DNA of 64,000 bases from the NCBI RefSeq assembly GCF_021172045.1, contig NZ_CP087164.1, forward strand, positions 1,054,001 through 1,118,000. The letters run 5' to 3'. Of the stretch, positions 26,661-54,293 are shown in pieces (within the stretch, counting starts at the first letter, position 1; every line of letters begins with the position of its first letter). Source of the stretch: Capillimicrobium parvum (GTDB lineage: Bacteria > Actinomycetota > Thermoleophilia > Solirubrobacterales > Solirubrobacteraceae). Under the pieces are notes generated by a model, which worked only from the letters and a program-made list of their open reading frames with translations, made no database searches and was not told the DNA's origin. A program made the translations under genes and the position numbers.

Positions 26661-26739
<79 letters not shown>

Positions 26740-26744
<5 letters not shown>

Positions 26745-26890: not shown

Positions 26891-29800
26891 ATGTTCGACG
26901 TCTCCACACTCAGCAGCTTCATCGGCCGCCGCGTCCTCCTCCGCGGTCAGTTCGTCGGTCCTGTGACGCTCGACGGCGTCGAGGATCTCGGCGGTACGTT
27001 CAGCCTGCGGGTTCGCCTTCCCGACGGGGCGCTGCGAGAGACGGTGCTCGATTCAGAGGAGCTCAGCGACGGCTCGTCGTTCGAGGTGCTCGGGGAGGCG
27101 ATGAACCTGGTCAACGGCGGCGACCTCTTTGACCTCGTCGAGGCCCAGCGGATCGAGCACGCCTACGCCCATGATCCGAACTTCGCCGTCTCGATGTCGG
27201 GCGTGCGGGGTCTGCCGCACCAGATCGAAGCGGTCTACCGGCACATGCTGCCCCAGCCGCGGCTGCGCTTTGTCCTGGCTGACGACCCGGGCGCCGGCAA
27301 GACGATCATGGCGGGGCTGCTCCTCAAGGAGCTGCGCCTGCGGTTGGTCGCCGATCGCGTCTTGATCCTCTGTCCCGCGCCGCTGACCGTGCAGTGGCAG
27401 GACGAGCTGCACGACAAGTTCGATGAGCGCTTCATGCTCATCGACTCGCACCTGGTCAGGTGGCAGCTGGGCGAGTCGCCGTGGCAGGAGCACGACCGGT
27501 GCATCGCGTCGATCGACTTCGCCAAGCGGGACGAGGTGCTCCCAGATTTGCTCCGCGCCGAGTGGGACCTGGTGGTCATCGATGAGGCGCACAAGTGTTC
27601 GGCTGCCTCCTACCCCAAGGTTCGTGACGGGGGCGACGAGCTCGACCGCACCAAGCGCTACACCTTGGCCGAGGAGCTCAGCCGGCGCTGCGAGCGTCTG
27701 CTGATGATGACGGCGACGCCGCATTCAGGTGACCGCAGCCGCTTCTACAACTTCCTGCGGCTGCTCGACCCCGACCAGTTCGCCGTCGACGAGCTGGCGG
27801 CCGAACAGATCCGCAATACCGACTCTCCGTACTTCCTGCGGCGTGAGAAGGACGATCTCGTCGACGAGTACGGCGGCAAGCTCTTCGTCGAGCGCGAGGT
27901 CGTCACTCAGCCCTTCGACCTCGGGAGGGCAGAGCTTGCGCTGTACGAGGCGGTGACGGAGTACATCCAGCATTTCCTCGGGCCTGCCGGCGGCGGCCGC
28001 GGCAACGCTGTGGCTCTGGCCCGCACCGTCCTGCAGCGCCGCCTCGCTTCGAGCCTCGGCGCGATCCGCTCCTCGTTGCGAAAGCGCGCCGACCGCATCT
28101 CGGCGCGTCTGATGGAGCTCGAGGCGCTGCCGCCCGCGGAGCGCGCGCGGCGCCTGCGTGAGCTCAAGCTCGCTGAGCCGCTCGCCGACGCCGAGCAAGA
28201 CGAGGATGACGCGACCGAGGCAGAAGAAGACCTCGCCGCCGAAGGGGTCGTGGTGGCTGAGTCGCTCGACCAGATGCGCGTCGAGATCTCCGCGCTCGAG
28301 CGACTCGTCGTGCAGGCCGACCAGACCATCCGCGGCGGGGAGGAAGCCAAGCTCGTCGCGCTCCGCGAGTGCCTACAGAAGGCAGAGCTCGCCGAGCTGA
28401 CCGAGGACGGCCGCGGCAAGCTGCTGATCTTCACCGAGCATCGCGACACCCTCGACTACCTGGAGCGCAATCTGCGCGACTGGGGCTACAGCACCTGCGC
28501 CATCCACGGCGGCCTGCCGCCGACACAGCGCAAGGTCGTCCAGCAGGAGTTCCACCAGAGCAAGCAGATCTGCATCGCCACCGAGGCGGCCGGCGAGGGG
28601 ATCAACCTGCAGTTCTGCCACCTGATGATCAACTACGACCTGCCGTGGAATCCGGTCCGCCTCGAGCAGCGCATGGGTCGCATCCACCGCATCGGCCAGC
28701 AGTCGAAGTGCGTCGTCTTTAACTTTTGCGCCACGAACACCGTCGAGGGGAAGCTGCTCTCGCGGCTGCTGGAGAAGCTCGAGCTTATGCGCATCGACCT
28801 CGGCGACAAGGTCTACGACGTCGTCGGGCAGGTGCTCACCCAGGGCGGCCTGGACTTTGAGCGGCTGCTACGTGACGCGATGATCGAGCCCGAGCGCGTC
28901 GACGCGGCAGCGCGGGAGATCACCGCACTCGATCCCGAGGCTTACGCGGCCTACGAGCGCGACATCGGCATCGCGCAGGCCACCCGCAACGTCGATGTCA
29001 CCTGGGTGCGCAAGCGCGACTGGCGCTCGGACGAGCGGCGTCTGATGCCCGAGTTCGTCGAGCGGCTCTTCGGACGAGCCGCCGACCACGTTGGACTGCG
29101 GCTGGAGGACCGCCGTGACGGTGAGCACCTCCTGCGTGCTGAGCATGTTCCCCGCTCGCTGCGGGACGATCGGCTGAGCTCGGTGCAGCGGCTAGGACCG
29201 CCGCAGGATCGCTACCTGAAGATGACCTTCCGTAAGGAGGCGCGCGCCAGCGCGCAGCACGAGGACGCGGTGCTGCTCTCGCCAGGGCACGAGCTCTACG
29301 GCGCGAGCATCGAGAAGATGCGCGAGCTGCTGCGCGGCGCCGACGGAGGCCTCGCTCCGTTCGTGGCACCTTGGGCGCGTGAGCCGTATGCGATCCACTT
29401 CTTCACCTACGTCATCCAGGGCATGGACTTGCGCGGCCGACCCGAGCAGGCGTGGGCCGAGCTGGTCGCCGTGGTCGAGGACCAGGATGGTCCACAGCTC
29501 GTTTCGCCCGACGTCCTGCACGACCTCACGCCGATTGACTACGTGCCCCGGGCGCTTGAGTCCCCCGACCCCGAGGCATTGCGCCGCGCGGCAAACCATG
29601 TCCGGTCTGTCGTGCAAACCGCCAAGCGCCGCGAAGTCAGCCGGGAGCGGGCCGAGCAGGCCCGGCTGCGCGCGGACTACCTGCGCCAGGCGATGGACGC
29701 GCAACGCGACGCACTACGCCAGCGCTACGAGCTCCTGGAAGAGCGCGTGTACCGCGGCGAGGATGCGGCGCGCTTCGCCCGCGACCGCGCGGAGGTCGCC

Positions 29801-30352
29801 TTGGAGGATCTCGAGCGCCGCCGGGAGTCCAAGCTCGCCGCCTTCGAGGGGCTCGGCGTCGTTCGCCCCGGCACCGTCAGCCACATCGGCACGGCGCTCG
29901 TCGGCCCGCCCGAGCAGCCCGAAGAGCGCGAGGCGACGCGATCGATGCGCGAGGACGACACGGTCGAGCTGGCCGCGATCGCAGCCGCCGAGCGTTATGA
30001 GCGCGAGCACGGCCGCGAGTGGGAAGACGTCAGCCACTTCCGCGACGGACGCGGCTTTGACGCCCGCTCGTGGACCGAGCCGCCCGACGGCCGCGTCACC
30101 GACGTGCGCCGCATCGAAGTCAAGGGCCGCTCGGCCGCGCACGGCGACGTCTCGCTGTGCAACACCGAGTGGATCGCCGCCCACCGTCACGGCGAGTCAT
30201 TCTGGCTGTACGTTGTCTACAACGCGGGACAACAGGGGGAGCGGCTCGTGCGAATCCAAGATCCGGCACGGGCGCTCGCTGGCGAGGTCGAAGAACGTCA
30301 GCAGGTCGTCACGTGGCGCATCCCCGGAGCTGCGATCGAGGCAGTCGCGTGA
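26891..30352 (+). CDS. SNF2-family helicase with C-terminal DUF3883 domain (DrmD-like)
   Basis: A 1153-residue superfamily-2 helicase/translocase, probably an anti-phage component. The helicase core has Walker A ADDPGAGKTIMAG (about residue 130), DEAH in VVIDEAHKCSA (about 228), MTATPHSGDRSRFYNFL, the second RecA lobe LLIFTEHRDTLDYLERNL with IATEAAGEGINLQF, and the arginine-finger motif RMGRIHRIGQ (about 593). A long middle region and coiled coil precede a DUF3883 domain (RRIEVKGRSAAHGDVSL, near 1075). ATG 26891 is chosen; TTG 26876 is possible. It overlaps the methylase by GTGA, so the three genes are translationally coupled. Resembles DISARM DrmD, but no DrmABC is present. Confidence 0.9.
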   Translation: MFDVSTLSSFIGRRVLLRGQFVGPVTLDGVEDLGGTFSLRVRLPDGALRETVLDSEELSDGSSFEVLGEAMNLVNGGDLFDLVEAQRIEHAYAHDPNFAVSMSGVRGLPHQIEAVYRHMLPQPRLRFVLADDPGAGKTIMAGLLLKELRLRLVADRVLILCPAPLTVQWQDELHDKFDERFMLIDSHLVRWQLGESPWQEHDRCIASIDFAKRDEVLPDLLRAEWDLVVIDEAHKCSAASYPKVRDGGDELDRTKRYTLAEELSRRCERLLMMTATPHSGDRSRFYNFLRLLDPDQFAVDELAAEQIRNTDSPYFLRREKDDLVDEYGGKLFVEREVVTQPFDLGRAELALYEAVTEYIQHFLGPAGGGRGNAVALARTVLQRRLASSLGAIRSSLRKRADRISARLMELEALPPAERARRLRELKLAEPLADAEQDEDDATEAEEDLAAEGVVVAESLDQMRVEISALERLVVQADQTIRGGEEAKLVALRECLQKAELAELTEDGRGKLLIFTEHRDTLDYLERNLRDWGYSTCAIHGGLPPTQRKVVQQEFHQSKQICIATEAAGEGINLQFCHLMINYDLPWNPVRLEQRMGRIHRIGQQSKCVVFNFCATNTVEGKLLSRLLEKLELMRIDLGDKVYDVVGQVLTQGGLDFERLLRDAMIEPERVDAAAREITALDPEAYAAYERDIGIAQATRNVDVTWVRKRDWRSDERRLMPEFVERLFGRAADHVGLRLEDRRDGEHLLRAEHVPRSLRDDRLSSVQRLGPPQDRYLKMTFRKEARASAQHEDAVLLSPGHELYGASIEKMRELLRGADGGLAPFVAPWAREPYAIHFFTYVIQGMDLRGRPEQAWAELVAVVEDQDGPQLVSPDVLHDLTPIDYVPRALESPDPEALRRAANHVRSVVQTAKRREVSRERAEQARLRADYLRQAMDAQRDALRQRYELLEERVYRGEDAARFARDRAEVALEDLERRRESKLAAFEGLGVVRPGTVSHIGTALVGPPEQPEEREATRSMREDDTVELAAIAAAERYEREHGREWEDVSHFRDGRGFDARSWTEPPDGRVTDVRRIEVKGRSAAHGDVSLCNTEWIAAHRHGESFWLYVVYNAGQQGERLVRIQDPARALAGEVEERQQVVTWRIPGAAIEAVA

Positions 30353-33021
30353 ACATCGAGGACCAGCGCCTCATCGAGGACTACATCCCGGTCGAGGCGA
30401 TCAGCATCGTTGCGCAGCGCGAGAAGATCGGCCACGCGGCGCTGCACCCGCGCAAGCTGCACCTGTGGTGGGCGCGCCGCCCACTCGCGGCAGCGCGGGC
30501 CGCCGTCTACGCGACCCTCGTCCCGGTCGAGGGGACGCCGGACAGCGAGCGCTCCGACGACTTCTTCGTCTCGTTGTGCCAGTGGGGCGCGAGCGACCAA
30601 ACAATCGCTGAGGCCCGCCGACGGGTGCTGGCCGCTAACGGCGGCGTGCCGCCGAAGGTACTCGACCTCTTTGCCGGCGGCGGCGCGATCCCGCTCGAGG
30701 CCGCGCGGCTGGGTTGTGACGCGACTGCGGTGGAGCTCAACCCCGTCGCGCACCTCATCGAGCGCTGCACTCTGGATTACCCGCAGCGCTTCGGGCCCGG
30801 CTTGGCCGATGACGTCCGCGAGTATGGCCGCCGCTGGGTCGACCGCACCTGGGACCGTGTCAGCCATCTCTATCCGCGGGTCGTCGACCCCCAGGGCGAG
30901 CAGCAGCGCCTCGGCGAGGACCCGACCGCCGACCGCGTCGCGGGACGACCGATCGCCTACCTGTGGACGCGCACCGTTCCGTGCCCGAACACCGCGGGCG
31001 GCGCCCACGAGATGCCGCTTGTGCGCCAGACGTGGCTGGCGAAGAAGAAGGGGCGCTTCGTTGCGCTCAAGCCGGTGGTCGACCGCCCGGCGCGCTCGGT
31101 GTCCTGGGAGGTCGTCGAGGCCGCGTCGTCCGAGGCGCTCGGCTTCGACCCGGCTGGCTTCTCTAGCCGTGGCAAGGCGAGCTGCCTGGTGTGCGGCGCG
31201 ACCGTCGACGCGAAGGACGTCAAGGCGCTCGGCCTCAACGGGAAGATGGGCATCACGCCGCTGGCAGCGGTCGTAGTCAAGCCGAGCGGTCGCGGTCGGG
31301 ACTACCTACCGGTGGGAACTTATGAGCAGCCGTCGGCTGCGGAATGTGAGGCAGTGCTCGCGGGGCTGGACGTGACGCCACCGGAGGAGTCGCTCCCGCA
31401 GGAGCTGACCGGCGGGATGTGTACTGCGTACGGCTTGGGGCGCTTTCAAGATCTCTTCACCCCGCGACAGCTCGCGACGCTCTGTGCCTTCGCGCAAGGG
31501 GTGCGCGAGGCGCACGCGGAGATGCTTGTCGAAGGAATGGAGCCGCAGCGGGCGGGGGCGGTCTGCGCGTCCCTCGGGATGGCGCTCGATCGCGTCGTAC
31601 TCCGGAGCAGCACCATGTCCCTCTGGGACAACGGAAACCTGTCGGTGACAAACGCGATGAGCCGGCAGGCGCTACCAATGGTGTGGGACTTCGCCGAAGC
31701 AAATCCTTTCGGCGGCGGAGCTGGACAGGCCATCGAATACGTCGAGAACACTGCCGACATACTGGAAGCACTCGCAAGTGCGAGCCGTCGGGTCGAATGT
31801 CACCGTACGTCGGCAACCCAGCTCCCAGACCATGACAGCACGTTTGACGCGGTCATTACCGATCCGCCGTACTACGACTACATCGCTTACGCTGACCTTT
31901 CGGACTTCTTCTACGTGTGGCTGAAACGTGCAGTCGGCTTCCTCTTTGAAGACGAGTTCAGCGGCGAGCTAACGCCGAAGCGCCGCGAGGCAATCGTTGC
32001 GCCGTACCGCCATCACGGCGACAAGGCTGCCGCGCGGGCGTTCTACGAGGAAGCAATGGCCAACGCCTTCTTGGAGGCGCACCGTGTTCTCAAGCCGGGG
32101 GCGCCCCTCGTTTGCGTGTACGCCCACAAGACAACCCTCGGTTGGTCGGTTCTGATAGAGGCGCTGCGACGGGCGAACTTCACGATTACCGAGGCGTGGC
32201 CGCTCGATACCGAGATGACGTCCGCTTTGAAGGCGAGGACCGCCTCCCTCGCCTCCTCCATCTTCCTCGTCGCCCGTCGCCGCGACGACGAGACAGCTGG
32301 CGCCTACCACGAAGTCGTCGCCGAGCTCGACGGCGTTATCGAGGAGCGTCTCGAGCGGCTCACGCAGGCGGGGGTCTCGGGGTCCGATCTCGTGATCGCG
32401 ACGATCGGCGCGGCGCTGCGGCCGTTCACCCGGCACGCGAGCGTGGAGCTTCCCTCCGGAGAGCCGGTCGCGGCCGAAACGTTCCTCACCGATGTGCAGA
32501 CGCGGGTGCTTGACGCGGTGCTTGCCAAGGTCCATGACCTCGGCGCGGACGTCGGGGCGATCGACTCCGCGACGCGGTACTACGTGCTCTCGCGCACGAT
32601 GTTCGGCTGGGCCGACATCGACTTCGACGAGGCCAACAACCTCGCGCGCACCGCGGGGGTGGAGCTCAAGGACACGCTGGCCTCCGGGCCTCACTCGCTG
32701 GCGGATGTCAAGGGCAAGGCCGTGCACCTGCGCGACTTCGAGGAGCGCGGCGCTGACGCCGACCTCGGGCTCGCCGGCACGCCGCTGATTGACGTGCTGC
32801 ACGGCGTCCTTTGGCGTGCCAACCATCGGGTCGTCGATCTGCCCGACTACCTCGCCCGGGTTCGCCCGGACACCGACCGCCTGCGTGCCGTCGCGCAGGC
32901 GCTGCAGGGTAAGGCGCTGCGCGATGAGGGTGAGTCCAAGGCGCCGGAGGCGCAGGCCTGCGAGCGACTGCTCGGCTCTTGGCGCACGCTCGTTGAACGC
33001 AACCTGGAGGGCCGCCTATGA
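30349..33021 (+). CDS. DUF1156-type adenine-specific DNA methyltransferase
   Basis: An 890-residue putative N6-adenine DNA methylase (COG1743-like). The N-terminal DUF1156 segment has EDYIPVEAISIVAQREK and KLHLWWARRPLAAARA. The SAM site is VLDLFAGGGAIPLEAARLG (about residue 104). The catalytic motif DPPYYDYIAYADLSDFFYVW lies far downstream (about 504). A zinc-ribbon-like insert keeps CLVCG but has lost cysteines in its first knuckle (PCPNTAGGA). GC drops to about 58% in 31,621-31,980 against about 73% in 30,841-30,960, which suggests a mosaic origin. It probably marks self DNA for the linked helicase and ATPase. The start GTG 30349 overlaps the helicase stop; its own stop overlaps the next start (ATGA). 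Confidence 0.9.
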   Translation: MNIEDQRLIEDYIPVEAISIVAQREKIGHAALHPRKLHLWWARRPLAAARAAVYATLVPVEGTPDSERSDDFFVSLCQWGASDQTIAEARRRVLAANGGVPPKVLDLFAGGGAIPLEAARLGCDATAVELNPVAHLIERCTLDYPQRFGPGLADDVREYGRRWVDRTWDRVSHLYPRVVDPQGEQQRLGEDPTADRVAGRPIAYLWTRTVPCPNTAGGAHEMPLVRQTWLAKKKGRFVALKPVVDRPARSVSWEVVEAASSEALGFDPAGFSSRGKASCLVCGATVDAKDVKALGLNGKMGITPLAAVVVKPSGRGRDYLPVGTYEQPSAAECEAVLAGLDVTPPEESLPQELTGGMCTAYGLGRFQDLFTPRQLATLCAFAQGVREAHAEMLVEGMEPQRAGAVCASLGMALDRVVLRSSTMSLWDNGNLSVTNAMSRQALPMVWDFAEANPFGGGAGQAIEYVENTADILEALASASRRVECHRTSATQLPDHDSTFDAVITDPPYYDYIAYADLSDFFYVWLKRAVGFLFEDEFSGELTPKRREAIVAPYRHHGDKAAARAFYEEAMANAFLEAHRVLKPGAPLVCVYAHKTTLGWSVLIEALRRANFTITEAWPLDTEMTSALKARTASLASSIFLVARRRDDETAGAYHEVVAELDGVIEERLERLTQAGVSGSDLVIATIGAALRPFTRHASVELPSGEPVAAETFLTDVQTRVLDAVLAKVHDLGADVGAIDSATRYYVLSRTMFGWADIDFDEANNLARTAGVELKDTLASGPHSLADVKGKAVHLRDFEERGADADLGLAGTPLIDVLHGVLWRANHRVVDLPDYLARVRPDTDRLRAVAQALQGKALRDEGESKAPEAQACERLLGSWRTLVERNLEGRL

Positions 33022-35840
33022 GTCCGAGCCCTGCCTACGCGCTGCGACCCTGGACCGACGTCGTGCGCCCGCACGACGACATCCGTTCGGGGGACCTCGC
33101 GCTGGGCACCTACGCCGCGAATCTCGCGCAAGTCGCGATGACGCAGGAAGCCGCGCCGGTCTACGGGGATGCGGAGGCGTTCTTCGCAGCGACGTATTTC
33201 ACTCCGACGATGTGCGGCCTGCTGGCCGATGTCTTTGGGGCGCTGAGCGGCCAGCGCGGCGACCGCGTCGTGCAGCTCAAGACGCCTTTCGGGGGCGGCA
33301 AGACCCACTCGCTGCTCGCGCTCTTTCACCTGGCGCGCTCGCGCGCGGCGGCCGCGTCGGTGCCCGAGCTCGACGGAATTGCCGACCCGGGTGAGGTCCG
33401 CATTGCCGTGCTCTCGGGCGAGTACCTCGACCCCGCGCGCGGGCGCGAGGTCGAGGGCCGCGTCATCCGCACCCTGTGGGGGGAACTAGCCTTCCAGCTC
33501 GGCGGCTGGCGAGCCTACGAGCGGCTGCTCGTCGACGGCGAAGAAGGCCCGCCGCCGGGCGGGCAGCGGCTCGGAGAGCTTCTCGCGGGCACGCCGGCGC
33601 TTGTGCTGCTCGACGAGGTGCTCGTCTACGCGGCCAAGGCGAAGTCGCTGCGGCTCGGCGACTCGACCATGGACCGTCAGGTCCTGCTCTTCGTCCAGCA
33701 TCTCACCGAGGCCGTCAACCAGCAGCAGCACACAGCGCTGGTCTACTCCCTGCAGGCCAGCGTTGGGGAAGCGGTTGGCGAGGAGGGGCTGCTCGAGGCG
33801 CTAGAGAAGATCGCCGGACGTATCGACGAGCGTCGTGAGCCGGTCTCCGGCGACGAGGTGCTCCGCGTGGTCCAGCGCCGACTGTTCGCCGACGTGGGTG
33901 ATGACGATGTGCGTTCCGAAGTCGCGCGCGCCTACGGCGACCTGCTCACCGCGCAGCTGGCTGCGGCCGCCGAAACCGACGGCGATCGCCAAGAGGCCGC
34001 TGCAGCAGGGCGCGGCCTGGAGCAGCGCATCCTCGAGTCATATCCGTTCCACCCCGAGTTGCTGGATCTCATGTTCCACCGCTGGGGCTCGTTGCCGACC
34101 TACCAGCGCACGCGCGGCGCGCTGCAGTTCCTCGCCACTGTCGTGCACGCCCTGTGGGCCAAGCGCTCCGAGCGCGAGCCACAGCCCCTCATCGGACCGG
34201 GCGACGTGGACCTGGCCGACGAGGGCTCCCGGCTGACGTTCCTCGAGCAGGTCGGCGCGACAAACCAGTACGCCTCGGTGGTCCAGGCCGACTTTCTGGC
34301 AACCGATGCGGGCACCCGGCGGATCGACGAGCGGCTCGGGCGCGACGCGCCGGGCCTTGAGCGTGCGCGGGTCGGGACACGGGTGGCCACGGCGATCATG
34401 CTGCTCAGTTTCGGAGCTCGCGAAGGGGCCGAGCGTGGGGCGCTTGAGCGTGACGTGCTTGAAACCTCGCTCGCCCCGGGCCTGGACCGCAACGTGCTCC
34501 TCGGGGCCCTCGAGGGGCTGCGCGGCGAGGCGCTGCTTTTCCTCCACCACGTCGGCGGTCGCTACCGTTTCGAGCCGCAGCCGAACCTCAACCGGCTCAT
34601 CCAGCAGGAGACCGCCAATGTCTCCCGCGAGTCGGTGCAGATTCACGTTCGTGCGCGCCTCGAAGACGTGCTCGGCGCTCGAGGGGCGAGCCGCCACGTC
34701 GTGCTGTGGCCTGACGGCCCCGGCCAGGTTCCCGACGAGACCGAGGCTTTCCAGGTCGTCTACCTAGCCGCGGACTGGTCGCCCGCCCAGGCTGCGCTCT
34801 CGCGCTACGTCCTGGAGAGCGCCAGTGGCCCGCGTGTGGCGCGCAACGCGCTCGCGTTCGTGGAGCCGGCATCGGGGCGTTTCGACGATGCCCGAGCCGC
34901 CGCGCGCCGCGCACTTGCCGTCGAGGCCCTCCTAAGCCAGGGCAGCCGCGTTGGGCTCAGCGGCGAGCAGAAGGAGGAGTTGAGGGAGCGTTTGCGCGTC
35001 GCCGAGCAGGAACTTCGCGCAGCTCTTGGGCAGGCATACACCCGCGTGCATGTCCCGCTGGGGCTCGCCGACGACGGCACCGTGCGCTTCGCCACGCGCG
35101 ATCTTGGGACGATCCTCTCCGGCGGGCGGTCCCTCCACGAGCGTGTCCGAGAGGCGTTGCAGACCTACGTCGCGGATGAGCTCTTCCCGACGAAGATCGC
35201 TGCATTGGCCGACCTGAGCGACGAACGAGAATGGCGCTGGGTGAGCGAGGTGGCCCACGCGTTGCCGAGGTTCTTCGAGGCGCCGAAGGTTTGGAACCAG
35301 GACGCGCTCACGACGGGGGTGATCAAGGCGGTCGCCCAGGGCGCGCTTGGTTACGTCGCGGGGGCTCAGGAGCGGGACGGCGCGCTGTTCGCGCCTTCGA
35401 CAGGCTCGGTGCGCCTCCGCGAGGACCTGGATCCCGGAAGTGTCGGGCTCGGCGAGGGCTGTGCTCTGCTGCGCGTGAGCCTCGCCGAGCGACTCCGTTC
35501 GCCATCGCCTCCCGACGCCCGACCCCAGAACGACCCGCCTGCGCCACAAATCGGCCGGCCGGATCAGCTTCCGATTGAGGTGGCGCCCGGCGGCGATGCG
35601 ACTGGACTGGCGCTGAGCATTACGGCAACTGAGGACGATCTCTTCACGCTCAGCCAGGCACTCGGCAAACTCCGCGGCCTGCTCGGAGAGGGCGGGACGA
35701 TGGGCCTGCAGATCGAGGTACGTTCGGCGACGTCAGGAGAGGCCATCGACCGTCTCAAGGCCCGCAACACGGTGGTGGAGCCGCTCGAGGAGAACGATGG
35801 CGTAACGCTGAGTTGGCAGTGGACAGGGCAGACGCGCTGA
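33018..35840 (+). CDS. DUF499-family AAA+-like ATPase
   Basis: A 940-residue predicted ATPase (COG1483/DUF499). Near the N-terminus is LALGTYAANLAQVAM. The Walker A motif is LKTPFGGGKTHSLLALFHL (about residues 86-104) and Walker B is TPALVLLDEVLVYAAKA (about 193-209). SFHPELLD-like YPFHPELLDLMFHRW and ALQFLATVVHALW follow. The C-terminal part is a variable region ending VTLSWQWTGQTR. This family recurs with DUF1156 methylases and SNF2 helicases in defence islands. It is coupled to the methylase by ATGA. Its mechanical role is unknown. Confidence 0.88.
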   Translation: MSPSPAYALRPWTDVVRPHDDIRSGDLALGTYAANLAQVAMTQEAAPVYGDAEAFFAATYFTPTMCGLLADVFGALSGQRGDRVVQLKTPFGGGKTHSLLALFHLARSRAAAASVPELDGIADPGEVRIAVLSGEYLDPARGREVEGRVIRTLWGELAFQLGGWRAYERLLVDGEEGPPPGGQRLGELLAGTPALVLLDEVLVYAAKAKSLRLGDSTMDRQVLLFVQHLTEAVNQQQHTALVYSLQASVGEAVGEEGLLEALEKIAGRIDERREPVSGDEVLRVVQRRLFADVGDDDVRSEVARAYGDLLTAQLAAAAETDGDRQEAAAAGRGLEQRILESYPFHPELLDLMFHRWGSLPTYQRTRGALQFLATVVHALWAKRSEREPQPLIGPGDVDLADEGSRLTFLEQVGATNQYASVVQADFLATDAGTRRIDERLGRDAPGLERARVGTRVATAIMLLSFGAREGAERGALERDVLETSLAPGLDRNVLLGALEGLRGEALLFLHHVGGRYRFEPQPNLNRLIQQETANVSRESVQIHVRARLEDVLGARGASRHVVLWPDGPGQVPDETEAFQVVYLAADWSPAQAALSRYVLESASGPRVARNALAFVEPASGRFDDARAAARRALAVEALLSQGSRVGLSGEQKEELRERLRVAEQELRAALGQAYTRVHVPLGLADDGTVRFATRDLGTILSGGRSLHERVREALQTYVADELFPTKIAALADLSDEREWRWVSEVAHALPRFFEAPKVWNQDALTTGVIKAVAQGALGYVAGAQERDGALFAPSTGSVRLREDLDPGSVGLGEGCALLRVSLAERLRSPSPPDARPQNDPPAPQIGRPDQLPIEVAPGGDATGLALSITATEDDLFTLSQALGKLRGLLGEGGTMGLQIEVRSATSGEAIDRLKARNTVVEPLEENDGVTLSWQWTGQTR

Positions 35841-37355: not shown

Positions 37356-37583
37356 ATGGACGAACTACGAGCGCCTCAAACGAACCCGGAGCGACTCCTC
37401 ACGGCGGAGGAGGTGGCCGAGCGCCTTGGCATGACGGCGGCATGGGTCTATGAGCAGAGCCGAAACGGACGCATTCCGACCGTCCTGCTCGGTCGTTACC
37501 GCCGATATCGGCGCGAGGCGATCGACGACTGGATTCGCCACGTGGAACACGGCGCGGCGCCCGGCCGCACGAGGGCGCGATGA
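37356..37583 (+). CDS. excisionase-like HTH protein
   Basis: A 75-residue protein with the Xis/MerR-type winged helix: LLTAEEVAERLGMTAAWVYE, then RNGRIPTVLLGRYRRYR and IDDWIRH. It is a recombination directionality factor candidate for the downstream integrase. ATG 37356. It overlaps the next gene by 4 bp (ATGA) and is first in a four-gene coupled operon. Confidence 0.85.
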   Translation: MDELRAPQTNPERLLTAEEVAERLGMTAAWVYEQSRNGRIPTVLLGRYRRYRREAIDDWIRHVEHGAAPGRTRAR

Positions 37584-37948
37584 GTCCGTCGGAACCTCCC
37601 GGAAAGCCGGGGCAGCTGGTCGTGCCGCAGAGGGCCCGCGCCGGGAGTTCACCGTCTCGGCCCACGCTTCGTCCGCGGGAGGTCGCGTTGGTGCTTCAGG
37701 TGTCGGTCGACCGGGTGCTTCGTCTTCCCGCCGATGGCGTTCTGGCCAACATCTCTAGCAAGTACCAGCCGCGCTTTGAGACCGATGAGGTGTGTCGGCT
37801 GGCGGAGCGGATGGTCGCCGCCGGCCAGCTGAGGCCGCTCGCGCTCTGGGTCGCCCGACTACTTATCGACGGCCAGGTCGAGGCGCCGCGTCTCGCGCGC
37901 GACCAGATCCCTCCGCTGCCGGTCGAACAGCTGCAGGACGAGGTCTGA
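37580..37948 (+). CDS. HTH-like accessory protein of the recombination operon
   Basis: A 122-residue protein of unknown family. The middle contains a helix-turn-helix-like stretch (LRPREVALVLQVSVDRVLRL) and FETDEVCRLAERMVAAGQLR. It sits between the excisionase-like gene and a giant recombinase-like gene, overlapping the first by 4 bp and the second by 1 bp (TGATG). It is probably a DNA-binding accessory factor for integration or excision. Confidence 0.7.
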   Translation: MSPSEPPGKPGQLVVPQRARAGSSPSRPTLRPREVALVLQVSVDRVLRLPADGVLANISSKYQPRFETDEVCRLAERMVAAGQLRPLALWVARLLIDGQVEAPRLARDQIPPLPVEQLQDEV

Positions 37949-40482
37949 TGATGGCCCGCTGTCGAAGTGTCCGTGGCGCTCAGGAGCTCACCCTCTTTGG
38001 CATGGATGGTTGGGATCCCAGCACACCAGATCGTGCAGAGGAACCAGAACCACGAATGCTGAGGAACTTGCCTGATACCTCCGCCGGCGGTGCGGCTCCT
38101 GACTTGCCGCTCGTCGCGCTCTCCCGGCTGGTCGGAACGATGAACGGCAGGTCCGGTCGCGTTTGGCACATGGTCTGCCACGTCGCGGTCGCGTACGCCA
38201 CCACAGGGTTGTTCACCGCAAGCGGGGAGTTGGAGCCGGCACCGTTCGCGGACCTTCCTGGCGGCCCGTGGCCGGACGGTCCGACGGCGCTAAAGCGACT
38301 GGGCACCGACCTCGCCACGGTCCGTCGCAGTTATCGCCTCCTGGTCCACCAGTCCGGCCCATTGGCGACGTTGAGCGAGGAGTTGGTCGCCGAGATCGTC
38401 CCTCGGCGCCTGTGGCCGGTCATCTCGCGCATGGCCCAAGACGGGCCGGAGGTGTTCGCCCGGCGCGCCGACCGATCGCTGGAGACGTACGCACTAACGA
38501 CCGTCGCCGGTAACAAGCGCCGTACGGCCGGCCCGCCGTCCATCGAATCAGTGCGCACGCGCGCTTACGCGTTCCGCCGACTCGCCGGCATCTTCGTCGA
38601 GCTCAACCAGACCACCGACACGTACCCCGAGCTCGCTGACTGGACGCGACGTTCTGGCATCGCTGTGCCCAAGCCGCCCGCCGTCGTTCGGCGTGAGGTC
38701 CGCGCACCACGACTGGAGGTGGTGCGCACGACCTGGGCCGATCTCGACCGGCGTGTACGCAAGTTCCTCAGGATCGACGCGGGCGACGACCTCTTCGACG
38801 CGGTTAACGCGATGCCTGACTACCGCCTGGTCGCCGGCGGGCTGTACTTCGATCTTCGGCGACTGGTCGCGCTGGAGCTGTTCGTGCTTCTGGGAGGGCG
38901 CCTGGATGCGATCCGCCGCCTCAACAAGAGCGATCTCGTCCTCGACACGATCGGACCTGCGCCTGACCACCGGCACGGCGCCGTGCTGCTTCTGCGCCCG
39001 GGCAAGACGCTCGACGAGAACGTCATTCGTCGCAAGCCTCTCCCGCAGCAGACGACCCGGCTTCTGCAGGCGTGGCTTCTGTACCTCCGCCGTCACCGAT
39101 CGGCTGTGTACTACGCCGATGCGCGGCGTGTGAACCCCCGCCCCGAGTCACCGGACCTGCCGGCCGATCACCCGCTTCTGGTCGCTCGTCAGCAGACGCT
39201 CTCACGCTGGGACACCTCCGCGCTACGCGTCATGTTCTCCGGCCAGCCATCAAAGCGCGGCCGAAAGGGCGGGACCAAGGCGCTCATTCCCCGCGACGGA
39301 GGCTGGGCACCTGATCTGCCCGTCGAACTCCGCGCCTACGTCGGCTACACGCCCCACGAGTTTCGACGCCTGGCCCTGCAGCTTGCCGAGCGCGCTGGCG
39401 CGATGTGGGACCGGGAGCACCCTTCGGGCGCGGCGCAGACGCGCCTCGAGCCCGGGATGTACGGCAGTGCCCTACTTGACCACGCACCGCCCGGCAATCC
39501 CTTGCGAAATCTGTACGCGGATCGCCACCAGGAGGACCTCTACGAGTTGCTCTCCGGCCGGGCGATCGAAGGCATCCGACGTCTGCTGACCGGTCCAGAA
39601 GGCGCCCGGCGGCGCCCCGATCGCAAACGGCTGGAGGCCCTCGCGCAGCGGCTTCGACTCGTCGACGCCGAGATCGCTCGCTTGCATGAGCGAGCCGAAC
39701 GCCTCGCCGCCCGCGCGGCGCCAGGTAGCGCCCACATGCTGTCCGCGGGTCGAGACTCCGATGATGAGGACCCGAGTGACCGGCAACTGTTGGAGGCCCT
39801 CGTCGCCGGCCAGCGCGACGGCGCCGCCCAGATGTTTGAGCAGATGGACCGGCTCCGCATCGAGCAGGCAGAGTCCGGTCGCCTGCTCTACGAGCAGTCC
39901 GCTCTATACGAAATCCGCCAGCGTGTCCGCGAGGAGCTGGACGCCCTCTGGCACAACGAGACGCGATGGGAGATCGTGCCTGACGACGCGCCGCCCGGCG
40001 CAGAGACCATCGACTTCACGCTCGACGACATCCTGGCGGGCGCGGATCTCGCGCCCGCTCCGAGCCTCGTAGCTCCGACGCTCACCCCGATACGCGACTG
40101 GCTGCTGGTCGTCGAGCTCGCGGAGGTCGCGCAGATCGACCGAACGACCGTCGCTCGCTATCTGCACGGGCAAGCGCTCCCGCCTCGCCGCGACGCACGC
40201 CCGTGGGAACCATCGGCCATCCCGATGGACCGCTCACTCGGGCGGAGCTATCGACGCATCTGGATCCCAGGAGTCAACACCGAGTTCTGGCGAACAGAGG
40301 CGATGAAGCTGAGGCTCGCCGTCGCCCTGTCGTCCTGGCCAGCAGGCCCAGGCTGGACCAGAAACGGGCAACCGACCCGGCGCTGCACTGCGCCTCTGCA
40401 TCTTCCGCCCGGATTCGCCTCCGGCGCTCAGCCGACCGGGCACAGCGACGTAGCGACGCTGCTACCGGCGAACGGCCGCTGA
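37948..40482 (+). CDS. very large tyrosine-recombinase-like protein
   Basis: An 844-residue protein. A putative tyrosine-recombinase catalytic domain spans about residues 240-530. It has an Arg I box GGRLDAIRRLNKSDL (about 316), HxxR in YTPHEFRRLALQLAERAG (about 469), a late His in LLDHAPPG (about 509) and a candidate nucleophile in LRNLYADR (about 520). The C-terminal 320 residues add coiled coils (LEALAQRLRLVDAEIARLHE) and a terminal HTH (LAEVAQIDRTTVARYLHGQ), features absent from ordinary integrases. It lies directly before, and 1 bp overlapping with, a canonical integrase. It is either a second recombinase or a structural partner. Confidence 0.72.
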   Translation: MMARCRSVRGAQELTLFGMDGWDPSTPDRAEEPEPRMLRNLPDTSAGGAAPDLPLVALSRLVGTMNGRSGRVWHMVCHVAVAYATTGLFTASGELEPAPFADLPGGPWPDGPTALKRLGTDLATVRRSYRLLVHQSGPLATLSEELVAEIVPRRLWPVISRMAQDGPEVFARRADRSLETYALTTVAGNKRRTAGPPSIESVRTRAYAFRRLAGIFVELNQTTDTYPELADWTRRSGIAVPKPPAVVRREVRAPRLEVVRTTWADLDRRVRKFLRIDAGDDLFDAVNAMPDYRLVAGGLYFDLRRLVALELFVLLGGRLDAIRRLNKSDLVLDTIGPAPDHRHGAVLLLRPGKTLDENVIRRKPLPQQTTRLLQAWLLYLRRHRSAVYYADARRVNPRPESPDLPADHPLLVARQQTLSRWDTSALRVMFSGQPSKRGRKGGTKALIPRDGGWAPDLPVELRAYVGYTPHEFRRLALQLAERAGAMWDREHPSGAAQTRLEPGMYGSALLDHAPPGNPLRNLYADRHQEDLYELLSGRAIEGIRRLLTGPEGARRRPDRKRLEALAQRLRLVDAEIARLHERAERLAARAAPGSAHMLSAGRDSDDEDPSDRQLLEALVAGQRDGAAQMFEQMDRLRIEQAESGRLLYEQSALYEIRQRVREELDALWHNETRWEIVPDDAPPGAETIDFTLDDILAGADLAPAPSLVAPTLTPIRDWLLVVELAEVAQIDRTTVARYLHGQALPPRRDARPWEPSAIPMDRSLGRSYRRIWIPGVNTEFWRTEAMKLRLAVALSSWPAGPGWTRNGQPTRRCTAPLHLPPGFASGAQPTGHSDVATLLPANGR

Positions 40483-41627
40483 TGTCCCGCCGGCCATATG
40501 GGACCGGCTCGCTCTTCCAGCGAGGCTGCAACTGGTACGGCCAGTGGCGCGTGGATGGTCGCCTCGTCAAACGCAAGGTCGGACCGGTCCGCACAGCTGG
40601 CACGAGCGATGGGCTGACGCGCGTCCAGGCCGAACGCCGGCTCCGGCAGCTCACCCAAGCCACGAAGGTCGCGGCGAGCCACGAGCGCCTTTCGATCGCC
40701 GTTGCGGCCGAGGCCTACCTCACCCATCTCGACGAGGTCCTGGGCCGCAAGCCCACAACCTTGCAGGACTACCGCAGCATCCTGCGCCGCCACGTGATCC
40801 CCTTCTACGGCGACGTTAAGCTAGATCGCCTCAACGCAGCACAGGTCGCCGGATACCTGGCAAGTCGGCGCCGTGCGGGACTCGCCCCGAAGACGGTGGT
40901 CAACCACGCGAACTTCCTGCACGGGTTGTTCGGCTTCGCTGTGCGGCGAGGCTGGATGCCGTCCAATCCCGTCGAGGCGCTGGACAAGCCTCGAGCCCCA
41001 GATCGCGGCGGTGAGGTGCGGTTCCTGTCGGCCGATCAGCTGGATCGCTTGATCAGCCATGTTCGGGCGACGAAGTTCGCTGAGGTCGACCGGGCGATCC
41101 TGGTGACGGCCGCGCAGTCCGGCCTCCGCCAGGGCGAGTTGCTCGCCCTCCGCTGGAGAGACGTGGATCTCGAGGCGCGCGTCCTGCGGGTCCGGGAGAG
41201 CTTCACCCGTGGGCGTTTCAGCTCACCGAAGTCCCGCCATTCGACGCGGGCTGTGCCAGTGTCGGCACGAGTCGCACTGGCACTCAGCAGGTTGGCACAG
41301 GTATCGGCGTTCACGGCGCCCGAGGACCTCGTCTTCGCGCACCCTGAACTTGGCTCGGTGCTCGACAGCTCGGCGCTGCGCAAGCGCTTCACGGCGGCCC
41401 TCAAGGCGGCCGGCCTGCCGCACATGCGGTTTCACGACCTGCGCCACACGTATGGAACGGCCATGGCGGCAGCTGGGACACCGATGCGAATGCTGCAGGA
41501 GTGGATGGGGCACGAGAGCTACCAGACGACGCTCATCTACGCCGCGTACGCGCCCGACGCATCGCACGGCTTGAAGTTCGTCGAGCGCGCTTTCGGTCGC
41601 TCAGCGGATTCCGGCGAGGAGCTCTGA
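40482..41627 (+). CDS. int: tyrosine site-specific integrase
   Basis: A 381-residue phage-type integrase. The N-terminal arm-binding region has GTGSLFQRGCNWYGQWRVDG. The core-binding domain holds YRSILRRHVIPFYGDVKLDRL. The catalytic residues are complete: Arg in SGLRQGELLALRW, HDLRHTYGT, GHESYQTT and the nucleophile in LIYAAYAPD. It probably drives integration at the tRNA-Met site. ATG 40482 overlaps the upstream stop (TGATG). The convergent XRE gene overlaps its last 27 bp. Confidence 0.95.
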   Translation: MSRRPYGTGSLFQRGCNWYGQWRVDGRLVKRKVGPVRTAGTSDGLTRVQAERRLRQLTQATKVAASHERLSIAVAAEAYLTHLDEVLGRKPTTLQDYRSILRRHVIPFYGDVKLDRLNAAQVAGYLASRRRAGLAPKTVVNHANFLHGLFGFAVRRGWMPSNPVEALDKPRAPDRGGEVRFLSADQLDRLISHVRATKFAEVDRAILVTAAQSGLRQGELLALRWRDVDLEARVLRVRESFTRGRFSSPKSRHSTRAVPVSARVALALSRLAQVSAFTAPEDLVFAHPELGSVLDSSALRKRFTAALKAAGLPHMRFHDLRHTYGTAMAAAGTPMRMLQEWMGHESYQTTLIYAAYAPDASHGLKFVERAFGRSADSGEEL

Positions 41628-46411: not shown

Positions 46412-46519
46412 CGCGGGGCTTCAGAACCCGCGGCAATGTCATCGGTGGAGGGGGTTAGTTCGCAACTTTCTTGCTGGGCGGGCGGCAAACCTGCGCCGCC
46501 CGCCCGGACGCCATCCTCG

Positions 46520-47524
46520 CTAGACCACGACGCGCAGGTCGGGCGGTCCGCTCGTTGTCGGTGCCATCGCGTGTGCGCGCCCACGATCCGACGCCAGCGT
46601 GAGCCCGAATACGGCCCGGTTCAGTTCCTCCACTGGGACCCTGAGTTCGCGAGCGACGTCCCGACGACTCACACCCTCCCCCTTGAGGGTCTGGAAGACC
46701 TTCGGCAGGATCTGCGACGTCTCCCGCTCGATGCCCCGCGGTTCGCCGGCCCGGTAGCCCCGCTGACCGAGCTCGATGTACGTCGAGCGTGCCTGCCAAT
46801 CGCTGAGCAGGCCGAGGCGATGCATGCGGCGCGCCAGGTTCATCGCCGCGACATTCCACCGACGTTTGGCTCTGATGATCTGCTCCACGCCGCCGCCACG
46901 TGGCGCGTCGGCCAGGACGCTGCGCCGCGGCATCAGGAACGCCGAGCCGAACACCTGCGCTTCGTCTTCGGCGCGTCGCCGCCGGGCGCCCGTGCGTGTG
47001 CATGACGAGGTGGCCGAACGCGTGGGCTGCGTCCATCCGACTGCGTTCAGCCGTCTTCATGCTGTTGAGGAAGACGTACGGGATCCCGCGCCGCCAGAAC
47101 GAGAACGCGTCGACCTCAGCGCAGTCCTGCACGAGCGAATACACCCGGACACCGTGCGCCTCGAGCAAGCGGACCATGTTCGGCGCCCGTCGTTCGCCGA
47201 GGCCCCAAAGCGCCCGTAGCCCGTCAGCTGCTTGCTCCGGATCGGTGTCCCGCAGATGCGGCAGGTCGGGCTGTGGGAGGTCGAAACGTGCGCGGATCCA
47301 GTCATCGAGCTGCAGGGCGATCGTTGCGGCGCCGATCGCCTGGTGGCGCTGGCTCGCGGTCATCGCACTCATCGAGCGGAAGCTCACGCTCTCGACCGGA
47401 GGCTCCTCAATGTCCTCACCGACGAAGAACGACATCGGGAACGACAACGCGGCCGCGAGCCGCTCGACGGTCTCGGCGTACGGCTCGCGTTCGCCACGCT
47501 CGTACGAGGTGAGCTGCCCGCAAA
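46520..47524 (-). pseudogene. XRE / ImmA-IrrE metallopeptidase regulator, truncated and frameshifted
   Basis: Remnant of an XRE-ImmA/IrrE protein. One frame encodes the end of the HTH (QLTSYERGEREP), ALSFPMSFFVGEDIEEPP and the peptidase helix AAHAFGHLVMHTHG. The family HExxH here reads HAFGH, so the catalytic Glu is lost. Continuation shifts by one base near 46,955-46,985 to the frame AEDEAQVFGSAFLMPR, IIRAKRRWNVAAMNLARRM and VPVEELNRAVFGL, ending at 46520. The first HTH helices are missing and replaced at about 47,520-47,570 by the end of another gene. It is broken in three ways. Confidence 0.75.
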
Positions 47525-47661
47525 TCAGATTATTTTGGCCATGTAGCCGCACGGACATCTGGCCGGGTTCGCAACTTCGAATCGGATCTGGCCGTGGTGC
47601 TCCCGCGGCCACTCCAAGCGGAGTTCTTGCTCGGCTGCTCGTGCCTCGTCGGGGGCGGTCA
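47525..47661 (-). pseudogene. fragment of the HNE-like gene (second copy)
   Basis: A 45-codon piece whose residues EWPREHHGQIRFEVA match the start of the protein encoded at 36794-37258 (EWPPEHHGQIRFEVA). The similarity ends abruptly at about 47570, after which the frame reads into the XRE pseudogene sequence. The DNA match to 37,130-37,230 is obvious by eye. It marks a recombination junction. Confidence 0.7.
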
Positions 47662-49851: not shown

Positions 49852-49898
<47 letters not shown>

Positions 49899-49903
<5 letters not shown>

Positions 49904-49932
49904 CCCTCTCGCCAGGGGGCTTTCGTTCTTTC
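49899..49932 (+). terminator. intrinsic terminator after att copy 2
   Basis: Perfect 9-bp stem aagccccct/agggggctt with loop ctcgcc, then ttcgttcttt. It is carried along with the att duplication. Confidence 0.75.
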
Positions 49933-49955
49933 TGGGGGTCCGCGTCGAGGCGGCG

Positions 49956-49974
49956 GGCATCGATCAGGCATGAA
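49956..49974. repeat. paired GGCAT(C/G)(A/G)A repeats, left arm of element 2
   Basis: ggcatcga at 49956 and ggcatgaa at 49967, 11 bp apart and 53 bp after the att core. This mirrors the pair at 26801/26812. Confidence 0.5.
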
Positions 49975-50037
49975 TTGCTCCGCGACTGAAGAGCGCGGGC
50001 AGCGAAGCGCGTCGACGCGCTTCTCGAGCGCCGGCCT

Positions 50038-51054
50038 TCACGCGCCCGTTTCTTCCTCGTCGTGCGGGCTGGGTTGCTCTGGTTGGAAGTCGACGTCGAC
50101 GGTTTGAAAGCCCTTGTGGCGTTCACTTTCGGCGTAGGCCGTGTAGCTGCGTTTGTCGGCGGATGTGAGCTGGACGTCGTCGGTGAAGGGTGTCAGCAGC
50201 GCCCGCGGCCACAGCCGTCGCTGGGCGACGACGTTGATCTCCGCCGCCACGACGGTGACGAGCGCCAGCACGTAGATCCAGGCGAGCAGTCCGAGCACGA
50301 GCGCGAAGACGCCGTATGACTCCCGCGTGCCCTTGAGGGCGTGGCTGACGAAGTAGGTGCCGGTGAGCTGCACGATCTGCCAGCCGATTCCGGCGACCAC
50401 GGCGCCGAGGCGTAGGTGGCGGGTGGGGATCTCTCGCGCGGTGAGCACCCGAAAGGCGAGCATGAACAAGGCGATGTTGGCGAGCGCGGCGATCAGGATT
50501 GCGCCGACTCGCAACCCGCCGGCCACGCTGGCGCCCAGGGCGCCCGCGCCGGTCGTGAGACCTGACAGCCCGGTCGTGACCAACACCCCGAGGCCGAGCA
50601 CGAGCACCAGCAGCAGGCTGCGCAGGCGGGACTTGATCGGGTTCGGGCGCACGTTGCGCGGCACAGCCCACGCGCGGTTGAGCGCGTTCTGGGTGGCCTG
50701 GGCGGCACCCAGGCAGCCATACAGCGCGCCCACGATTCCGATCACCAGCGCCAGCCCGCTGCCCGAGTTTGCGTGCACGTTCTCGCGCAACTGGCTGGAG
50801 ATGACGGGGAACTGGGCCAGCGCCGAGTCCAACAGCCTGGCCTGCAGATGCGGATCTCCGTGCAGCGCGAAGGCGAGGATCGTGGCCAGCAACAGCAGCA
50901 GCGGAAACAGCGACAGGAACCCGTAGTAGGTGATCAGCGCCGCCAGGTAGCCGCCCTGGTCGTCCGCGAACTTGTACACCACAGCGAGCGGGAAGCCGGC
51001 CCAGCGGTGGCGTCGCTGAAAGGCGTCTAGCGACCTGACAACACGGCCCGACAT
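50038..51054 (-). CDS. YihY/BrkB-family membrane protein
   Basis: A 338-residue integral membrane protein with six predicted helices. Family landmarks are DQGGYLAALITYYGFLSLFP, LNRAWAVPRNVRP, the proline-rich loop region and GVFALVLGLLAWIYVLALVT. The C-terminal 50 residues are hydrophilic. BrkB-like proteins are widespread with poorly defined function. Start 51054. It is the only multi-pass protein of element 2. Confidence 0.93.
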   Translation of the reverse strand: MSGRVVRSLDAFQRRHRWAGFPLAVVYKFADDQGGYLAALITYYGFLSLFPLLLLLATILAFALHGDPHLQARLLDSALAQFPVISSQLRENVHANSGSGLALVIGIVGALYGCLGAAQATQNALNRAWAVPRNVRPNPIKSRLRSLLLVLVLGLGVLVTTGLSGLTTGAGALGASVAGGLRVGAILIAALANIALFMLAFRVLTAREIPTRHLRLGAVVAGIGWQIVQLTGTYFVSHALKGTRESYGVFALVLGLLAWIYVLALVTVVAAEINVVAQRRLWPRALLTPFTDDVQLTSADKRSYTAYAESERHKGFQTVDVDFQPEQPSPHDEEETGA

Positions 51055-51159
51055 GCTGGTCGCGGCCTCGCAGATGCTGCAGGAGCCCCCGCTGCTGCCG
51101 AGGGCGGGCTCGCCGCGCCGAGATGGCTCGCCGGGTGTCGTGCCGTAGGGATGGGCACC

Positions 51160-51534
51160 TCAGCGACGAGCGAGTCGGCGCCCGCTCTCCGTGTTGGGCG
51201 GGGTGTAGTTGAGCTCGTAGTGGTGGTAGAGCACCGACTCGTCTGCCTGGGAGAGCTCGTCGCCGTGCTGCTCGATGTTGGGCGCGTCCTTGACCTGCTC
51301 CTTGGAGACCGCTACCTGCAGGTCATCGGGACCGACGCTGATGCCACCGAGCGGCACGAAGGTCAAGTGGCGCCCGATGAAGCCCTCCTTGACGGTGCCG
51401 AACTGTGGCTCGTCGTTCTCGACGTCGACGTAGACGTCCTGCAGCTTGCCGATCTTCTCGCCATTGCGGTCGACCAGCATCTTGCCGTGCCATTCGGCGA
51501 CGTTCCACTCGGAGTCCCGCTGGTGCTCGCCCAT
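51160..51534 (-). CDS. PRC-barrel domain protein
   Basis: A 124-residue protein with the PRC fold: WHGKMLVDRNGEKIGKLQDV, FVPLGGISVGPDDLQVAVSK. PRC-barrel proteins bind RNA or other partners in rRNA processing or stress responses; here the role is open. The C-terminal tail (NYTPPNTESGRRLARR) is basic. It lies about 105 bp upstream of the BrkB gene on the same strand. Confidence 0.88.
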   Translation of the reverse strand: MGEHQRDSEWNVAEWHGKMLVDRNGEKIGKLQDVYVDVENDEPQFGTVKEGFIGRHLTFVPLGGISVGPDDLQVAVSKEQVKDAPNIEQHGDELSQADESVLYHHYELNYTPPNTESGRRLARR

Positions 51535-52238
51535 CGCCTCAATCCTCCTCTACGACCGGATCCCGGCATCTACCCATGTTACGCGCGCTGCAGCCCAGCC
51601 GGAACCCCCTGCGGCCGGCGCGAGCCCGTCGGCAAGGCGAGCCGCGACCCACGGACGGCATCAAGGCGGGCCCTCCGCGACCACGAACCCGAACGGGGTC
51701 CACTACGCCCCCGAATGGACCCGGGGTGCTGGTGTCGCGACGTTCATCGTCGGCGGCCTCGCGAAGGATGGCAGCGGGGACGTTGGAGCGGCGACACCGG
51801 GCACCTGCGCGCGCTGACGCCGCGCCGACAGCGCATCGGCGCGGCGGCTCAGCGGCTCAGCGGCGCAGCGGCGCAGCGGCGCAGCGGCGAGCATCTCTGG
51901 GCGACCGGCGATCGTGGCTGAACGCGCTGGGTTCGTCCGTGTCGGACTCGGCCACCACGATCACGTTGGCACGTCCGCTCCTTGGTCGCCGCGACCGCCC
52001 AACCGTCGCGCATTCTGCCCGGGATCGGTGCTCGAGATTGCCAGGTTGTCGCGGCGACGCGAGGTGCGGGCGCGCAAAGCACGAAGCAGTGGGCCAGCGT
52101 TGCTTCTCCGACCTCGGGATCGGGGATATCGGACGGGCCGCCTTCCTTGCCCGGTCTGGGCAGGTGACGCGCCCAGCAGAAAAGACGTGCAGGCCCGAGC
52201 GCTTGTGCCGGCGCGGCGTAGAAGAATCCCGGCTGACA
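51535..52238. other. 704-bp stretch without a supported gene
   Basis: Apart from the 8-bp tandem repeat at 51846-51885, I see no convincing gene. One frame (about 51690-51817) reads TNPNGVHYAPEWTRGAGVAT, which looks protein-like but has no proper start context; it may be a gene remnant. Confidence 0.4.
51846..51885 (+). repeat. 8-bp tandem repeat, five units
   Basis: ggctcagc twice, then ggcgcagc three times, followed by ggcgagca. A simple array in non-coding DNA; it may be a slipped-strand expansion. Confidence 0.85.
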
Positions 52239-52454
52239 ATGCCCGTCTACGTCTATCGCCGCCACGACGGCTCGACGTTCGAGATCACGCAGCGGATCAC
52301 CGACGACAGCCTGGTCAGCTGCCCGACGACCGGGCAGAAGGTCGAGCGCGTGCTTCAGCCGTTCGCCCCGCGCTACAAGGGCACCGGGTTCTACTCGACG
52401 GACCACCGGAGACTCAAGCCCAGCGAGCAGCCGAAAGGTGGCGGTGAGAAGTGA
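52239..52454 (+). CDS. FmdB-family protein with lost zinc cysteines
   Basis: A 71-residue protein. It keeps the FmdB frame MPVYVYRRHDGSTFEITQRI, ITDDSLVSCPTTGQKVERVL, but where the family has two CxxC knuckles only one cysteine remains, so it probably binds no zinc. ATG 52239. It lies 39 bp before the regulator gene. Confidence 0.75.
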   Translation: MPVYVYRRHDGSTFEITQRITDDSLVSCPTTGQKVERVLQPFAPRYKGTGFYSTDHRRLKPSEQPKGGGEK

Positions 52455-52493
52455 TGGTGGCCGCGGAGCGGGTGTATCGTCACAGGCGTTGCC

Positions 52494-53513: not shown

Positions 53514-53604
53514 GGCCGGTCGATGAGTGCGTTCGACACGAGGCATCGTCCCGACCCAAGGAGTGTCCGCTGGGCCCGAGCTCGAGGATCCCGAAGCGAC
53601 GCGC

Positions 53605-53808
53605 ATGGCTGAGACCGGTCCGACCATCACCGCGATGCTGGAGGACGGCCCTCTGAAGGGCAGCAGGATCGAGGCTGAGATCGTCGAGGGACGCCCGCCG
53701 AAGACGATCGATGCGCCTGACGACGACGGAAGCACGTGCCGCTACTGCCTCGCGGACTGGGTCCAGAGCGGTCGATCCGCGGCGTACACGTATCTGTACC
53801 GCGTGTAG
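53605..53808 (+). CDS. small conserved protein with single CxxC
   Basis: A 67-residue protein: AMLEDGPLKGSRIEAEIVEG, PKTIDAPDDDGSTCRYCLAD and a C-terminal AAYTYLYRV. ATG 53605 is preferred to a start at 53527. Similar short proteins occur in actinobacteria without known function. Confidence 0.6.
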   Translation: MAETGPTITAMLEDGPLKGSRIEAEIVEGRPPKTIDAPDDDGSTCRYCLADWVQSGRSAAYTYLYRV

Positions 53809-54142
53809 TCACCAGACGAGCCTCAGCAACCGCTGCACGACGAGCTGAGCCCGGTGCGGCTGTCCATGGCGGATCCCGCTGCATCGCTCATTCCCTCGCG
53901 GCGATCGCCGGAAGCGGCGCAGTCACCTCAGAAGCGAAGGTGCCCTCATTCGTCGTGCGCTCGACATCGTCGGTCTCAGAGCGCGTCGCCGGGAATCAGC
54001 CTCAGGGCTGACCGAAGACTTGACAAGGCAACCCACAGCACCAAGACATCATTCCGCAATCAGGAGGCGCCGCTCGTCATCCGCGAGTCCACCAGCCTCA
54101 GGCTGAACGTCATCTGAAGTCGCTCTGAGCGACCAGCGAGCG

Positions 54143-54161
54143 GGCATCGTATCGGTGTCAA
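54143..54161. repeat. paired GGCATC/GGTGTCAA repeats, right arm of element 2
   Basis: ggcatcgt at 54143 and ggtgtcaa at 54154, 11 bp apart, ending 86 bp before att copy 3. More diverged than the other pairs but at the matching position. Confidence 0.45.
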
Positions 54162-54246
54162 ACTGACCAGAACCCAGCCGACCGCAAGGTCCCGGGATGC
54201 TGGGGGGAACCGCGAGAACGCAGCACGGGCATCCCATCCGCACGAT

Positions 54247-54293
<47 letters not shown>

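Follow-up and report, generated by a model that had tools for sequence, protein, structure and literature searches.

A putative large tyrosine recombinase and its small partner, inserted between xis and int in a tRNA-Met island of Capillimicrobium parvum

What does an 844-residue, recombinase-like protein do in an operon that already holds an excisionase-like gene and a canonical tyrosine integrase gene? The question arises at a locus of Capillimicrobium parvum that we analysed within a 64,000-nucleotide stretch of contig NZ_CP087164.1, here called the window. An earlier note on this DNA had described four overlapping genes, Xis-like, HTH-like, large recombinase-like and integrase. Their coordinates were all confirmed, as were the overlaps, ATGA between P0001 and P0002 and TGATG both between P0002 and P0003 and between P0003 and P0004:

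37356..37583, + strand: operon gene 1, P0001, Xis-like, 75 aa, with an HTH_17/excisionase domain
37580..37948, + strand: operon gene 2, P0002, small HTH-like partner of the large recombinase, 122 aa
37948..40482, + strand: operon gene 3, P0003, large tyrosine recombinase (putative), 844 aa
40482..41627, + strand: operon gene 4, P0004, canonical tyrosine integrase (Int), 381 aa

P0001 matches Pfam HTH_17 (9.6e-12), the TIGR01764 excisionase model (1.3e-8) and a PHROG excisionase (8e-10), and P0004 matches PF00589 (2.2e-32) and a PHROG integrase (9.5e-68). P0002, which is present in a single copy in the genome, has no family match above threshold. The open frame of P0003 is longer than chance would produce, since its 844 aa compare with a maximum of 548 codons (median 275) for the longest one-strand open frame under a dinucleotide model of 8.5 kb; its coding status is also backed by homologues 675 to 768 aa long.

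Searched alone, P0003 gave no recombinase match in Pfam, PHROGs, NCBIfam or PADLOC; a NAPRTase_C match in its helical region (0.002), under that family's cut-off, was set aside as chance. Whole-genome searches recovered six full-length relatives, all from Thermoleophilia (two of them MAGs) and 22 to 26% identical to P0003, giving 7 of the 399 genomes sampled with the window included. A phylum sample of 386 held no full-length relative beyond the window's own, and the pattern scans of plasmids, phages and viral contigs, which are insensitive, found none either. Weak matches in the phylum and the order proved to be fragments, and the four that were translated (L091, L093, L097 and L098) contained no recombinase. 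The P0003 family is rare, and it has no name in the family libraries searched.

The relatives give direct if weak HMM matches, the PF00589 model to two of them (1.2e-4 and 3.5e-4), the XerC model to two (9.7e-7) and the PHROG integrase model to three (1.7e-6). Profile comparison by hhalign aligned the P0003 family with a set of eight long recombinases of the Tn554 type (P = 3.6e-9) and also with TnpA-type recombinases (5e-8), the motifs being in register in both cases, and the scores of 83 and 70 compare with at most 22 for column-shuffled controls (n = 40). Against the four partner integrases alone the comparison was not significant (P = 0.07), and against an 18-sequence integrase set it gave 3.7e-9. 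AlphaFold models of P0003, full-length and cropped, were of low confidence (pLDDT 37 and 52); the top 14 Foldseek hits of the low-confidence cropped model were Cre or its engineered variants, all weak (E 0.025 to 0.16, TM 0.22). The residues and regions that bear on function are as follows:

38899..38901, + strand: codon of R318, catalytic Arg I, invariant in 7/7 sequences
39004..39006, + strand: codon of K353, candidate beta-hairpin Lys, invariant in 5- and 3-sequence alignments
39355..39366, + strand: codons of the HxxR motif, H470 to R473, with H470 and R473 each invariant in 7/7
39481..39483, + strand: codon of H512, third catalytic position (H/W), His in 6/7 and Gln in L023
39514..39516, + strand: codon of Y523, candidate nucleophile, invariant in 7/7
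39622..39951, + strand: long helical (coiled-coil-like) region, residues 559-668, from the predicted model
40084..40197, + strand: C-terminal HTH, residues 713-750, from weak family-level matches

The Arg, HxxR, His and Tyr set had previously been picked out by eye, and it stands above chance because R318, H470, R473 and Y523 account for four of the only 18 invariant columns in the alignment of P0003 with its six relatives; K353 has no aligned invariant column in that seven-sequence alignment. Taken with the HMM matches of the relatives and the hhalign results, these columns bear out the proposal of a tyrosine recombinase with a full catalytic set. From its sequence, P0003 is almost certainly a tyrosine recombinase, and probably a complete and active one.

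P0003 would appear to have its catalytic domain in the centre, then a long stretch of helices and, towards the C terminus, an HTH. The coiled coils suggested earlier correspond to modelled helices at residues 559-590 and 609-668, with pLDDT of about 70 to 80 in part; the terminal HTH is more weakly backed, by family-level matches (Pfam HTH_31 at 0.0025 in P0003 and HTH_17 in 3/7 relatives). Such a long helical region with an HTH behind it suggests binding and assembly, and P0003 might accordingly be imagined as an architectural or regulatory DNA-binding factor that has the recombinase fold and no enzymatic activity, as has been proposed for Tfp and GinC. Both of these are large proteins with the recombinase fold, and their catalytic sets are incomplete (PMC10214605, PMC5385486). 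Unlike them, however, the P0003 family keeps its four core catalytic residues invariant, and we regard a purely architectural role as improbable.

An ordinary recombinase and an abnormally long one are encoded in one operon in Tn554 and its actinobacterial kin (PMC3414803), and two-recombinase elements with an ordinary and a large enzyme are also known as SE and GInt (PMC10214605, PMC5385486). The likeness to Tn554-like elements drawn in the earlier note, with size and order differing, is sound: the operon shares the pairing, and the P0003 catalytic domain aligns in register with the Tn554 TnpA and TnpB profiles, while order, size and domains are otherwise. Since the arrangement is already known in Actinobacteria, P0003 could in principle be a diverged but ordinary long recombinase of the Tn554 type (TnpB or an actinobacterial LTBSSR). 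Several differences make this very improbable. Only the catalytic domain aligns with the Tn554-type proteins, and the N- and C-terminal parts of P0003 do not; the catalytic Tyr lies at 523 of 844, with the helical region and HTH behind it. The Cys triad that follows the catalytic Tyr in 8/8 TnpB-type proteins is missing from the P0003 family when the two are aligned. Tn554 runs short, long and DUF6262 TnpC, whereas the window operon has long before short and no DUF6262/TnpC gene: its genome gave no PF19776 match, and P0002 does not match TnpC, a protein that some known Tn554 relatives lack as well (PMC3414803). Finally, the window operon adds an Xis and an HTH gene, and a 52-bp att repeat marks a tRNA as the target of its element. 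Tn554-type elements with DUF6262 TnpC do occur in the same family (L058, at G033:C1:1283770 and 4103480), and the two DUF6262 copies of that genome have identical scores, possibly reflecting recent transposition. An 863-aa tyrosine recombinase also adjoins another short-long pair on the Pseudonocardia plasmid pBCI2-2 (L064:5053-7641).

SE, the strand-biased circularizing integrative elements (IntA, Tfp, IntB, Srap), resemble the operon in having four overlapping genes that include an ordinary recombinase, a large RHRY recombinase and a small helper (PMC10214605), but the window operon has no Tfp-like gene, and SE proteins did not match the P0003 family when single pAQU1 sequences served as queries. 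GInt (ginABCD) likewise combines a four-gene recombination operon with an island bounded by direct repeats (PMC5385486). It differs in gene count and position: GInt places three recombinase-like genes (ginABC), together with ginD, at the island edge (PMC5385486), whereas the present operon sits inside its island and encodes two recombinases alongside a pair of short HTH-type proteins. RIT elements (RitA, RitB, RitC) carry three recombinases of 315 to 410 aa (PMC10214605); the suggested RIT likeness holds for the overlapping tyrosine recombinase genes, but membership does not, as the operon here has two recombinases, of 844 and 381 aa. Xis-Int islands that target tRNA genes are a good match for P0001 and P0004, for the att repeat at tRNA-Met and for the defence cargo; the present operon differs from them in the HTH-large recombinase pair placed between xis and int. 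The system would work like the known elements with an ordinary and a large recombinase, yet it looks like a separate and uncommon variant.

The island in which the operon lies is delimited by the following features:

26661..26734, + strand: tRNA-Met(CAT), the integration target (attB gene), found by ARAGORN
26693..26744, + strand: attL of the 23-kb island, an exact 52-bp repeat shared with 49852-49903
26891..30352, + strand: HmaA, island cargo (PADLOC HmaA, 9.3e-185)
30349..33021, + strand: HmaB, island cargo (PADLOC HmaB, 5.5e-129)
33018..35840, + strand: HmaC, island cargo (PADLOC HmaC, 3.6e-115)
49852..49903, + strand: attR of the 23-kb island, an exact 52-bp repeat
54253..54289, + strand: further att-like copy, an exact 37-bp repeat of 26699-26735

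The tRNA has the GGG/CCC anticodon stem seen in initiator tRNA, and the 52-bp repeat comprises its 3' part and ten further bases; the next longest repeat in the att comparison, 21 bp at 37134/47583, apparently falls within gene starts that resemble each other. A duplicated tRNA 3' part thus bounds P0004, which places the element among tRNA-integrating Int-Xis islands, and inside the 23 kb no gene other than P0004 has a Pfam integrase match. The operon adjoins neither end: attL is roughly 10 kb away from it and attR roughly 8 kb. The further att-like copy suggests that a second, tandem element of 4.4 kb is possible at 49904-54289; the right ends of the island and of this possible element share GCGAGAACGCA...GCACGATCTCAT just inside att. 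Directly inside attL, hmaA, hmaB and hmaC are adjacent, the arrangement that identifies an Hma (helicase-methylase-ATPase) defence system, here complete-looking at 26891-35840. An XRE plus metallopeptidase-like gene at 46455-47612 is apparently frame-disrupted and may be a decayed regulator.

The same site is used elsewhere. Many related genomes (L079-L085 and L087) have a tRNA-Met gene followed by at least one spaced copy of its 3' half, and the gene is a recurrent integration hotspot among relatives. Two of the elements there have a relative of P0004 and no large recombinase: in L081 the integrase is 53% identical to P0004, and in L083 it is about 41% identical and preceded by an Xis-like gene. 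P0004 therefore probably sets the tRNA-Met site. In our reading, a 23-kb integrative island with Hma phage-defence cargo occupies tRNA-Met, and the operon is its likely recombination module; Xis (P0001) and Int (P0004) would form an ordinary pair that uses the 52-bp att core to insert and excise the island. The att repeats and the presence of Int relatives at the same site both point to this pair as the one that mobilises the island.

Where does the large protein belong? The idea that the four genes make up one conserved integration module found no support in a survey of co-occurrence, in which only the HTH and large genes travel together. At 6/7 loci (window, L020, L022, L023, L039 and L040) the large gene is immediately preceded by a P0002-like gene, and none was recognised in L021. 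The order is xis-HTH-large-int in the window and HTH-large-xis-int in L020 and L039, beside tRNA-Thr(GGT), and the integrases of the window and of L020/L039 belong to distant lineages. In L021 the large gene is accompanied by a divergent integrase 1.2 kb away, and in L022, L023 and L040 no tyrosine integrase was detected on the contig of the large gene. From these gene orders and integrase lineages across the seven loci, it is the HTH and large pair that forms the conserved unit, joined to different Xis-Int systems; P0002 and P0003 would be a separable two-gene cassette lying between Xis and Int. Near the large recombinase of L022 are patatin-like, JAB and E1-E2 type genes, a CBASS-like set (L022:9305-13680), and in L023 a Cas4-like nuclease adjoins it.

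At three of the seven loci (L022, L023 and L040) the contig shows no tyrosine integrase, so Int is not necessarily the partner with which the large protein works. It is conceivable that the HTH and large genes are an autonomous module with sites of its own (a small element, an inverter or a resolver) that has lodged in Xis-Int operons and is inactive at the tRNA. Its presence at integrase-free loci, its combination with two unrelated Int lineages and its two placements relative to xis speak for such independence, as do the P0004 relatives that lack P0003. We nevertheless think this rather unlikely. Repeat searches found no att site or terminal repeats of the module's own, and comparison of L022 with L023 gave no element ends, conservation stopping at the gene ends. 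Moreover, the tight start/stop overlaps with neighbouring genes in two lineages resemble selected co-expression: in the window and in L039 there is overlap between the large gene and those next to it in the operon, and xis and int overlap in L020 and L039. These overlaps suggest co-expression of the large protein and the integrase across two unrelated Int lineages, and they favour joint action of the two proteins.

On this comparative evidence, we consider it quite possible, if short of probable, that P0003 acts jointly with the co-expressed Int and modulates integration or excision of the island. P0003 would then assist or control both reactions beside Int, the part that large recombinases play in Tn554, SE and GInt elements. 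A related and more tentative proposal, which we put forward with some doubt, is that the HTH and large genes constitute a new, rare and separable module that has plugged repeatedly into unrelated Xis-Int operons, and also occurs alone, with a specificity or control function of its own.

In this island the Xis-Int system has gained a physically linked large recombinase that its relatives at this tRNA site lack, and a comparison with and without the large protein is therefore possible at a matched site. The locus also adds a recombinase family that is nameless in the family libraries searched. If the proposal is true, a plug-in module of an HTH and a large recombinase gene would give islands a second recombinase with a specificity of its own or a control function.
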